A stretch of DNA of 64,000 nucleotides from an uncultured Dehalococcoidia bacterium (GTDB taxonomy: Bacteria; Chloroflexota; Dehalococcoidia; Lucifugimonadales; UBA1123): the NCBI GenBank assembly GCA_958296105.1, contig OY282441.1, positions 2,253,800-2,317,799 of the forward strand, given 5' to 3'. This document shows, one piece after another, positions 32,405 through 36,977 of the stretch. The position numbers were made by a program, and so were the translations under genes. A model generated the notes under the pieces. That model was not told the origin of the DNA, did no database searches, and worked only from the letters and a program-made list of their open reading frames with translations. Position 1 is the first letter of the stretch; every line of letters starts with the position of its first letter.

Positions 32405-32526
32405 TGCGCGCGCCTCCTCATGCGTGTCCACTTCTCTTTACATTCTAACCCAGAGCGCGCCCACTCCGCCCCCAATCTGCCGCCAAGCGGCTTGCGGCTG
32501 CCGGTGACTGCCATACATGCCTTCAG

Positions 32527-32564
32527 TTAACACACTTGCAACATTTCTGAAATAAAAGTTTACA
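32527..32564 (+). promoter_or_regulatory. Four-box GlnR-like operator upstream of amt
   Basis: TTAAC (32527), GCAAC (32538), GAAAT (32549) and TTACA (32560) start exactly 11 bases apart. This matches the known geometry of GlnR operators (gTnAc-n6-GaAAc, repeated). A weak -10 (AACAAT, 32583-32588) follows. The same four-box layout is upstream of the first glnA. The protein that binds it is not in the window. Confidence 0.6.
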
Positions 32565-32645
32565 CCCAAGAAAAAAAACGGAAACAATCGCCCGCTATTC
32601 TCCCTGCACGTAAAGACAAGAGTCTGCTTCGAGGAGGTGCAGCAA

Positions 32646-33956
32646 TTGAGTAAGACAGGACTCCTGATCGTCACGCCGTTTAGGCTTCGGCTTTTTGCGG
32701 TGGCGCTTTTGGGAATCGGCATATTCTTCGGAAGTATCGGAGTGGCTTACGCCGATGGCCACGATATCGTAGACGCCAAGCTGAACGACTTCGTGACCGT
32801 GGTCGCCTCGGCCCTCGTGTTCTTCATGCAGGCTGGGTTCGCGTTCCTCGGCGCCGGCCTGATCCGCTCGAAGAACACCATCAACTACATGACCAAGTCC
32901 TTCTTGGACTTCTGCATAGCCTCGCTCGGATTCTGGGCGTTCGGATTCGCTCTTATGATGGGCGGAGGCGCCGCCTCCGGCTTCATCGGACTAGAGGGGT
33001 TCTTCCTCGTCGACTTCAGCGATTCCGAGCTCGTTGGCTGGTTCTTCCAGATGGTATTCGCCGGAACCGCCGCAACGATAATCGCGGGCGCAATGGCGGA
33101 GCGCACCAAGATCAACGCCTACTTCGCGTACAGCTTCTTGGTCGGCGCGGTCGTCTATCCCATCTATGGCCATTGGGCTTGGAGCGAAGACGGCTGGCTG
33201 ACGAAGATCGGCCCCGGCATGGCAGACTACGCCGGCTCCGCGGTCGTCCACATGATAGGCGGCTTCCTCGCGCTTGCGGGCGCGCTGGTGGTTGGCCCCA
33301 GAAACGGCTTCCGCGAAGGCGCGAACCTGCGCGGACACAACATCCCCTTCGTGGTCATCGGCACCTTCATACTCTTCTTCGGATGGTTCGGATTCAACGT
33401 CAACTCCGACAGCCTGGGCCTGAACGCGGTCAACACGCTGCTGGCAGGCGCCGCCGGCGCCACTTCGGCCATCTACATCACCCTGCTTCGGACGGGCAAG
33501 GCAGACATCGAGATGGCGTGCAACGGCGCGCTGGCGGGACTCGTAGGCATAACCGCGGGTTGCGCGTACGTCGACCCTTGGGCGGCGGTTGTCATCGGCC
33601 TGCTCGCCGGCGGAATAATGATCGCGGGCGTGAGCTTCGTCAAGAACGTAGTCAAGGCTGACGACCCCGTTGGCGCGGTCGCAGTACACGGCATCTGCGG
33701 CGCGTGGGGCGTCCTCGCAGTCGGAATCTTCGCATCCGGCGATGACGTATCCGGGCTGATCGCCGGAAACGCCGCCCAGCTTCTGCCGCAGATCGTCGGC
33801 ATCGTCGTGGCGATAGCTTGGGGCTTGGGCGTCGGCTTCGTCATGTTCAAGGCCATAGACCTGACCATGGGCCTGCGCGCCTCAGACGAAGAGCAGGCAG
33901 ACGGCTTGGACGAGCCGGAGCATGGCGCAGCGGCGTACCCCGAGCTGGCGAGCTAA
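32646..33956 (+). CDS. amt: Ammonium transporter
   Basis: 436 residues. A signal-like first helix ends in AYA-DG, then eleven membrane segments. Key Amt residues: the twin pore histidines in VVHMIGGF and VAVHGICGAWG, and the signature region DYAGSAVVHMIGGFLALAGALVVGPR. The start is taken as the TTG at 32646 with GGAGG eight bases before it; a GTG at 32637 overlaps that site. The C-terminal tail is short and acidic. No glnK follows, which is unusual. Preceded by the four-box operator. Confidence 0.94.
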   Translation: MSKTGLLIVTPFRLRLFAVALLGIGIFFGSIGVAYADGHDIVDAKLNDFVTVVASALVFFMQAGFAFLGAGLIRSKNTINYMTKSFLDFCIASLGFWAFGFALMMGGGAASGFIGLEGFFLVDFSDSELVGWFFQMVFAGTAATIIAGAMAERTKINAYFAYSFLVGAVVYPIYGHWAWSEDGWLTKIGPGMADYAGSAVVHMIGGFLALAGALVVGPRNGFREGANLRGHNIPFVVIGTFILFFGWFGFNVNSDSLGLNAVNTLLAGAAGATSAIYITLLRTGKADIEMACNGALAGLVGITAGCAYVDPWAAVVIGLLAGGIMIAGVSFVKNVVKADDPVGAVAVHGICGAWGVLAVGIFASGDDVSGLIAGNAAQLLPQIVGIVVAIAWGLGVGFVMFKAIDLTMGLRASDEEQADGLDEPEHGAAAYPELAS

Positions 33957-34012: not shown

Positions 34013-34059
34013 AAAAGGTCCTGACCACTCCAAGGGGGCTTGAGCGGTCGGGACCTTTT
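34013..34059 (+). terminator. Terminator downstream of amt
   Basis: AAAAGGTCC(T)GACC pairs with GGTC(G)GGACCTTTT, a 14-bp stem with one T-G pair, ending in TTTT-C-CTATT. It is symmetrical and could stop transcription in both directions. Confidence 0.8.
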
Positions 34060-34088
34060 CCTATTGGGGGAGCAGGGGAGTCACTGCG

Positions 34089-34945: not shown

Positions 34946-35088
34946 GTCCATTGGCGGGCGGCGGGTGGATAGCTGTATCAGTCTGGTTGGCGGTACGGAA
35001 GTCCCATCTCCCTCTCGTCCGTCCATTGGCGGGCGGCGGGTGGATGCTGCATCAGTTTGGTCGGCGGTACAGAAATCCCATCTCCCTC
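34946..35088. repeat. Direct repeat of about 68 bases (two copies)
   Basis: GTCCATTGGCGGGCGGCGGGTGGAT...CCCATCTCCCTC is present at 34946-35014 and 35021-35088 with a few differences. It ends in a degenerate form of the CTCTCCC palindrome, so it is a variant of the larger repeat family. The stretch 34885-35124 holds no supported gene. Confidence 0.8.
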
Positions 35089-35124
35089 GATGGGAGAGGA
35101 CTAGGGTGATAAGGTTTGTGATAT

Positions 35125-35178
35125 TTAACACAAATGTAACAATTGCGTAACACCCCCGTAACAAAGCTCCCCGATAAT
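35125..35178 (+). promoter_or_regulatory. Four-box GlnR-like operator and -10 upstream of glnA
   Basis: TTAAC (35125), GTAAC (35136), GTAAC (35147) and GTAAC (35158) are spaced exactly 11 bases apart. GATAAT (35173-35178) lies ten bases after the last box and there is no -35, so the last boxes sit where an activator would replace it. This is the best example of the motif in the window. Confidence 0.65.
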
Positions 35179-35258
35179 GTGAAACATAGAACAAACGAGG
35201 CGCAGGGACGAATCGAACGCATCCCGCGCCAGTACATTCAGATCAGGAGTGAGCAGAG

Positions 35259-35354
35259 ATGGGTATAGAAGCGATTCTTGGCGGAGTGGCATTCGCTGGA
35301 CTGTTTGGACTCTGGGTTGTCCTCCCCAGCAGGATTCGGAAGAACCGCGAGTAA
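35259..35354 (+). CDS. 31-residue single-helix membrane microprotein
   Basis: The peptide has a hydrophobic stretch IEAILGGVAFAGLFGLWVVL and a basic tail PSRIRKNRE, the classic layout of a small one-pass protein with the positive end inside. GGAG is seven bases before the ATG. It is the first ORF after the four-box promoter and lies 195 bases upstream of glnA, so it may be co-transcribed with it. It recalls in form the microproteins that tune transporters, but no relationship is known. Confidence 0.55.
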   Translation: MGIEAILGGVAFAGLFGLWVVLPSRIRKNRE

Positions 35355-35423: not shown

Positions 35424-35461
35424 TGATAGAATAGTGCCTGATCGGTGTTTCGGTCAGGCAC
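35424..35461 (+). promoter_or_regulatory. Possible second glnA promoter and leader hairpin
   Basis: TGA-TAGAAT (35424-35432) is an extended -10 element. It is followed by a stem-loop GTGCCTGA/TCAGGCAC (35434-35461). Either glnA has its own start here or the hairpin separates it from the microprotein transcript. Confidence 0.35.
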
Positions 35462-35549: not shown

Positions 35550-36977
35550 ATGACACCTGAAGAAGTCATAAAATTCATAGCGGACGAGGGCGTCGAGATG
35601 ATCGACCTCAAGTTCACCGACCTGCTCGGCACGCTTCAGCACTTTGGCGTCCCGCCGAGCGCGGTCACCGAAGGCCTCTTCGAGAGGGGCACCGGATTCG
35701 ACGGATCGAGCATTCGCGGCTTCCAGACCATCGACCAAAGCGACATGCTCATCGTCCCTGTCGCCAGCACCGCGAACATCGACCCCGTGTACAGCAGGAA
35801 GACTCTGAGCCTGATCTGTGACGTCCGCGATCCTGCGACCGGCGGCGATTACAGCCGCGACCCCAGGAACGTCGCGCAGAAGGCCGAAGCATATCTGGCA
35901 TCCACCGGCATCGGCGACGCCAGCTACTGGGGGCCTGAGGCCGAGTTCTTCATCTTCGACGCCGCCAGCTACGACCAGAACGCGCACTCGGCACACTACA
36001 GCGTGGACTCGGACGAAGGCGTCTGGAACGCGGGCAGCAGGTACATGCTGGACGGCAAGACGCTCGGCAGGGGCTACAGGACGCGCCACAAGGGGGGCTA
36101 CTCCCCCGCCCCCCCGGTGGACCATCTCAGCGACATTCGCGCCGAGATGGCCATTGATATCCAGAAGTTCGGCATGGAGGTCGAGAAGCACCACCACGAG
36201 GTCGCCACCGCCGGGCAGGGCGAGATCACCGTCGTGTACGACACGCTCACCAAGTCAGCCGACAACACCATGATATACAAGTATCTGGTCAAGAACGTGG
36301 CAGCGCGGCACGGCAAGGTCGCAACGTTCATGCCCAAGCCGCTGTTCGGAGACAACGGCACCGGGATGCACACCAACCAGAGCGTCTGGAAGGACGGAAC
36401 GAACGTCTTCTACGGAGACGGCTACGCCCACATGAGCGACACGATGAAGTTCTACATCGGCGGCCTGCTCAAGCACGCCCCCGCCCTGCTCGCGTTCGCC
36501 GCGCCCACTACCAACTCGTACCGCCGCCTGGTGCCGGGCTTCGAGGCGCCGGTGAACTTGGCTTACTCCTCGCGCAACAGAAGCGCGTGCTGCCGCATAC
36601 CGGCAGACTTCGATACGCCGTCCTCCAAGCGCATAGAGTTCCGCTGCCCCGACCCGACGGCCAACCCGTACCTCGCCTTCAGCGCGATGCTGCTTGCGGG
36701 ACTGGACGGCATCCAGAACCGGATCGACCCCGGCGACCCGATGGACGTTGATCTGTACGACCTCTCTCCTGAAGAGGCCATGAGTGTCGAGCAGGTGCCC
36801 GGCAGCTTGGAAGATGTGCTCGACGCGCTGGAGGACGATCACGAATTCCTGCTGGCGGGCGGCGTGTTCACGCCCGACCTGATCGAGACGTGGCTGGACT
36901 ACAAGCGCGTCAACGAGGTTGACGAGATGCGCCTGCGCCCCCATCCCCACGAGTTCTTCCTCTACTTCGACGCCTAG
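35550..36977 (+). CDS. glnA: Glutamine synthetase, type I-beta
   Basis: 475 residues. It makes glutamine from glutamate, ammonium and ATP. GTGFDGSSIRGF, GPEAEFFIFD (metal Glu), HHHEVATAGQGEI and NGTGMHTNQS (ATP/metal sites), RLVPGFEAPVNLAYSSRNRSA are all present. The C-terminal DLYDLSPEEA keeps the Tyr that is adenylylated in GSI-beta enzymes. The ATG at 35550 has GAGGAG eight bases upstream and gives the normal length. It is preceded by the four-box operator. Confidence 0.96.
   Translation: MTPEEVIKFIADEGVEMIDLKFTDLLGTLQHFGVPPSAVTEGLFERGTGFDGSSIRGFQTIDQSDMLIVPVASTANIDPVYSRKTLSLICDVRDPATGGDYSRDPRNVAQKAEAYLASTGIGDASYWGPEAEFFIFDAASYDQNAHSAHYSVDSDEGVWNAGSRYMLDGKTLGRGYRTRHKGGYSPAPPVDHLSDIRAEMAIDIQKFGMEVEKHHHEVATAGQGEITVVYDTLTKSADNTMIYKYLVKNVAARHGKVATFMPKPLFGDNGTGMHTNQSVWKDGTNVFYGDGYAHMSDTMKFYIGGLLKHAPALLAFAAPTTNSYRRLVPGFEAPVNLAYSSRNRSACCRIPADFDTPSSKRIEFRCPDPTANPYLAFSAMLLAGLDGIQNRIDPGDPMDVDLYDLSPEEAMSVEQVPGSLEDVLDALEDDHEFLLAGGVFTPDLIETWLDYKRVNEVDEMRLRPHPHEFFLYFDA

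Follow-up and report, generated by a model that had tools for sequence, protein, structure and literature searches.

For decades, research on ammonium transporters (Amt) has treated them as homotrimers under PII control, and the usual neighbour of amtB is GlnK, a soluble PII signalling protein of ~ 112 aa. AcrZ, MgtS, MgtR and MgtU are single-span microproteins that are tied to bacterial transporters and made under the matching stress (PMC10710835), and KdpF is a subunit of the K+-ATPase (PMC10903887). In the archaeon Methanosarcina mazei, the nitrogen-limitation small protein sP36 (61 aa) acts on AmtB1 together with GlnK1 and is a soluble hexamer with no transmembrane helix (PMC10714827). The 23-residue sP26 of the same organism has glutamine synthetase (GS) as its partner and is reported to bind soluble GS and GlnK1, with no membrane span mentioned in that description (PMC10651883). 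As for regulation, the actinobacterial GlnR box, gTnAc-n6-GaAAc-n6-GtnAC-n6-GAAAc, is found upstream of amt and glnA (PMC10704036).

In the present work, we analyzed a 64-kb window (the whole stretch of DNA under study) from a marine Chloroflexota bacterium; it contains a microprotein gene between amt and glnA. Our comparison of related genomes suggests a translated single-span microprotein with its own nitrogen-activated promoter, most likely an accessory or regulatory subunit of one Amt clade (clade 1), a reading to which we assign a probability of roughly 0.6. The features of the locus are as follows.

32637 to 33956, forward strand: amt, clade-1 ammonium transporter and proposed partner (PF00909, 407 bits)
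35124 to 35165, forward strand: four-box GlnR-type operator TTTAACACAAATGTAACAATTGCGTAACACCCCCGTAACAAA, 11-bp repeats (position weight matrix score 47.6)
35173 to 35178, forward strand: -10 element GATAAT, with constant spacing to box 4
35246 to 35249, forward strand: Shine-Dalgarno sequence GGAG, 9 nt 5' of the ATG
35259 to 35354, forward strand: microprotein gene, ATG to TAA, 31 aa, single transmembrane helix with a basic tail
35434 to 35461, forward strand: 12-bp hairpin between the microprotein gene and glnA, a probable terminator or attenuator
35550 to 36977, forward strand: glnA, glutamine synthetase (PF00120, 434 bits; PF03951, 99 bits)

The peptide resembles AcrZ, KdpF and MgtS/MgtR/MgtU (28-50 residues, with KdpF at 29) in its size, its one helix and its tie to a transporter. 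It differs from them in that the transporter is Amt, that nearly all tandem copies carry an operator and that the family occurs in this sample only in Chloroflexota; it also matches no Pfam or NCBIfam model, including any that exist there for KdpF or AcrZ. Its size and span lie within those of transporter-associated single-span microproteins (< about 50 aa, one transmembrane helix), and the linkage to or co-occurrence with a transporter that marks this group is found as well. Like GlnK, the peptide fills the cluster slot beside amt, but it is not a soluble PII protein, and the window’s genome has a separate amtK-glnK pair (L187) about 54 kb upstream of the window amt, which thus has the microprotein, not glnK, as its companion. 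sP36 offers a functional parallel, but it is distinct from and unrelated to our peptide, which has 31 aa and a strongly hydrophobic helix. sP26 shares with the peptide that it is a nitrogen-related small protein and is set apart by its reported binding of a soluble enzyme (PMC10651883).

Coding status of the microprotein gene

The ORF at 35259-35354 encodes MGIEAILGGVAFAGLFGLWVVLPSRIRKNRE. In the AlphaFold prediction, a single helix spans residues 3-28 (mean pLDDT 90); hydropathy peaks at 2.06 on the Kyte-Doolittle scale, and the tail reads SRIRKNRE. A preliminary description of this DNA had proposed a 31-residue ORF with one hydrophobic helix and a basic tail, all of which we recover. It had also noted a GGAG ribosome site, which is present, at a distance of 7 bases, which should be 9 nt. 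The tests that it named beforehand, conservation of the reading frame in relatives and a synonymous bias of substitutions, both came out in favor of a gene: the frame is retained across the order and the phylum, and dN/dS is 0.05-0.27 across ten groups of close homologues. In these groups, mean pS is 0.46 versus a pN of 0.09, and codon positions 1, 2 and 3 changed 35, 15 and 102 times, respectively. Within the window’s genus, the C-terminal length difference is a multiple of three. The start codon is ATG in 98 of 105 copies, and a Shine-Dalgarno sequence precedes 90 of the 93 well-scoring homologues. Conservation of the frame throughout a phylum, under purifying selection, puts the ORF far beyond chance; it is a real gene, and its coding status is well supported.

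Common to the family are a single hydrophobic helix and the motif AFxGLFxxWVVLPS, and most members also have a basic tail. F12 and P23 are invariant across homologues, with A11, L15, F16, W19 and V20 nearly so, and residue conservation is periodic as on a helix (p = 0.03, moment test), which fits a partner surface.

Distribution of the family

Searches by tblastn and with a profile built from 27 homologues found the peptide throughout the order (58 of its 197 genomes) and, beyond it, across the class and the phylum Chloroflexota, to which the family is confined in the genomes sampled here (mostly MAGs, and phylogenetically related). Near relatives include Dehalococcoidia bacterium SB0664_bin_33 and SAR202 cluster bacterium bin.363. 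Neither the window peptide nor 27 homologues had a significant match in Pfam or NCBIfam, no PDB chain was matched by a 12-member peptide profile, Rfam placed nothing near the locus in eight loci, and tblastn against a plasmid collection gave no match to the peptide. Fifty genomes reached via Amt loci, mostly from other phyla plus four other Chloroflexota, likewise gave no match, a result of little weight in a set that holds no positive genome. By these comparisons, the family is undescribed, and it is a new family of a known kind, that of the AcrZ-, KdpF- and MgtR-like microproteins.

Homologues in genus g65 (L123, L127-L132, L134, L135, L138) have a longer tail, mostly ending in FAPQAAD or a PAPSPAD-like variant. 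Weak candidate homologues lie just 3' of amt at L195:3857 (23 bits) and, in Thermoflexus, at L202:1302 (12 bits).

Operator and transcription units

The four-box pattern is perfect at 35124-35165. It occurs nowhere else in the window, where chance would give 0.03 occurrences, and no other site there scores strongly; upstream of the window amt there is just weak operator-like sequence, at 32526-32588. The first ORF 3' of the operator is the microprotein gene, as had been proposed. The GTnAC-n6-GaAAC boxes have 11-bp phasing, lie near the -35 and match the a-b-a-b consensus known from actinobacteria (PMC10704036). As with the actinobacterial box, there are four boxes in 11-bp phasing and sites upstream of amt and glnA (PMC10704036); unlike it, the element is hosted by Chloroflexota and has its strongest sites at the microprotein genes.

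At a position weight matrix threshold passed by 1% of null sequences, 84 of 105 homologues are preceded by the four-box element, which lies between about -72 and -150 from the ATG; it also occurs upstream of Amt, AmtK and GlnA genes. The preliminary description had suggested nitrogen-type regulation from the location of the gene, and the conservation of the operator upstream of about 80% of homologues points the same way. The -10 positions A..A.T are conserved at 91%/75%/90%, at an identical offset from the operator, in 81 promoters. The operator is well supported. It is present at nearly all copies of the 2-4-gene tandem arrays (L105, L106, L114-L117, L119, L121) and at most unlinked copies in family f41, and is lacking at the second copies in L123, L131 and L135 and at the copies in family f74. 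The arrays in L105, L106 and L108 comprise three to four microprotein genes, with an operator and a -10 element at nearly every copy and a terminator after some genes. Just 5' of the window operator, at 35058-35109, lies a dispersed repeat (ATCTCCCTCGATGGGAGAGGACTAGGGTGA-like) with > 20 genomic copies.

Two relatives form a hairpin at the place matching 35434-35461, with base changes that keep the pairing. Across the family, terminator-like hairpins lie 3' of 56 of 93 homologues versus 14.6 in shuffled sequence. A terminator-like inverted repeat, read by eye, also follows the window amt (~ 34013-34062); the microprotein gene begins > 1.2 kb past it and is a unit apart from amt. Each microprotein gene usually forms its own transcription unit.

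Co-occurrence with one Amt clade

The Amt proteins of the order fall on two sides of a bit-score gap, and we took as clade 1 those scoring at least 410 bits, the next score being 345; the 400-bit line was drawn after the gap had been seen. This gap coincides with the presence or absence of the peptide. Clade-1 Amt is found in 49 of the 197 genomes, and all 49 carry the peptide, compared with 9 of the 148 genomes without this Amt (Fisher p about 1e-37, with phylogeny ignored), a pattern that favors the partner, Amt, suggested in the preliminary description. Five of the nine exceptions (G048, G108, G115, G164, G182) are 66-85% complete; the others are G021, G042, G055 and the main counterexample, G031, a genome 97% complete with a divergent peptide beside glnA and no Amt detected. 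Peptide and clade-1 Amt have been lost jointly inside genus g1 (G005) and in several families, while in genus g65 the peptide is unlinked from amt, both are retained, and the peptide has kept its operator. GlnA, in contrast, is nearly universal (187 of 197 genomes) and so does not explain the distribution of the peptide. A blind scan for small membrane ORFs of any kind that have a ribosome site and lie no more than 900 bases from one of 80 Amt genes returned the peptide family at 9 loci of Dehalococcoidia or other Chloroflexota and nothing comparable elsewhere.

Microprotein genes share the strand of the amt/PII/glnA/gltB clusters, in the orders amt-peptide-glnA, amt-peptide-amtK-PII, amtK-PII-peptide-glnA and peptide-amt. 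The peptides that follow an amtK-PII pair form a divergent subfamily, most members of which are without phenylalanine at position 16. A conserved glutamine-synthetase-like protein of about 337-355 aa with a partial catalytic domain (L097:9373-10437; also L102, L106, L107, L114-L117, L150), 75-82% identical across families, shares microprotein operons.

Interpretation and alternatives

We base the Amt-subunit reading on the co-occurrence with clade 1, the conserved frame, the operator with its -10 element, the same-strand neighbourhoods, the blind scan and the conserved helix face; the topology, any contact with Amt and the way it would act on the transporter are inferred. Under nitrogen limitation, an OmpR/GlnR-type regulator would bind the four boxes and bring RNA polymerase to the -10 element. 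The short transcript would be translated and the peptide would enter the membrane so that its basic tail is cytoplasmic and the helix face of F12, F16, W19 and P23 packs on the membrane part of Amt. The tail would then lie beside the acidic Amt C-terminus, the docking place of PII proteins, where the peptide may stabilize the transporter, modulate its activity or alter how it couples to PII and glutamine synthetase. The charge complementarity between the tails of Amt and peptide is weak and only suggestive. Counting against a subunit of Amt are G031 and several copies with neither Amt nor glnA within 5 kb, and the co-occurrence could arise from shared regulon membership rather than contact.

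A shared nitrogen regulon is also how the link to Amt would come about if the peptide were instead a membrane tether or effector that recruits or modulates GlnA or PII. In the window and at many loci, glnA comes immediately after the peptide gene, G031 has peptide and GlnA, and the divergent subfamily, placed between PII and glnA after AmtK (L118, L153, L165), makes a role on the glnA side possible; the reported binding of GS and GlnK1 by sP26 (PMC10651883) also counts in its favor. We nevertheless consider a tether unlikely, as it is clade-1 Amt and not GlnA that predicts the peptide, many copies have no glnA nearby, and the helix takes all but a few residues, leaving little for a soluble enzyme. 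A nitrogen-regulon peptide with some other membrane partner would accommodate the orphan copies, one copy beside SulP-Usp (L095), and the ORFs of weak similarity that neighbor an ArsP-type permease (L141-L143). But these ORFs score 21-26 bits and have no operator, and the peptide accompanies clade-1 Amt in all 49 genomes, so that we consider a different partner improbable.

Since the short ORF lies between promoter and glnA and is followed by a hairpin, it could be read as a leader peptide that acts by attenuation, its translation governing the next gene in cis. We rejected this candidate as very improbable: the unlinked and array-terminal (L105) copies have no nitrogen gene downstream and fail the expectation of a controlled gene always in cis, conservation acts on the amino-acid sequence and not on codons, there is no run of Gln/Glu codons, and terminators follow many copies. 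A type I toxin-like peptide, for which we take Ldr/Ibs/Fst as the comparison, would fit the size, single helix, basic tail and tandem copies but is hardly credible for a gene that co-occurs with Amt, carries a nitrogen operator and has synonymous sites so strongly diverged (pS 0.63 in g1) as to be ill-suited to a conserved antisense RNA.

If the peptide is indeed an Amt subunit, a microprotein always accompanying one Amt clade would provide a second level at which ammonium uptake is controlled in SAR202 and its relatives, an abundant marine and sponge-associated lineage. The operator, the strongest feature of the gene family, also offers a handle on the Chloroflexota nitrogen regulon. More tentatively, single-span subunits across the phylum might make one Amt class a membrane-regulated hetero-oligomer, with or without PII; each Amt type would then have its own paralogue, and tandem duplication would adjust the copy number. 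We consider this wider picture less likely than not.

Outlying copies and similar ORFs

The f74 copies without an operator and the low-scoring matches beside the ArsP-type permease were left out of the main argument. The former (L110-L112) lie more than 5 kb from any amt or glnA, and in L110 and L111 the homologue adjoins a DUF503 gene. The latter are weakly similar small membrane ORFs at L141:5001-5069 (MPEWWLEAMLPGITFTVLFIIWVVLPSR...), L142:5001-5069 and L143:4986-5066, from two lineages; an ArsP_1 family permease gene lies 56-85 bp 3' of each, and they may make up a sister family of microproteins that belongs with a different permease.
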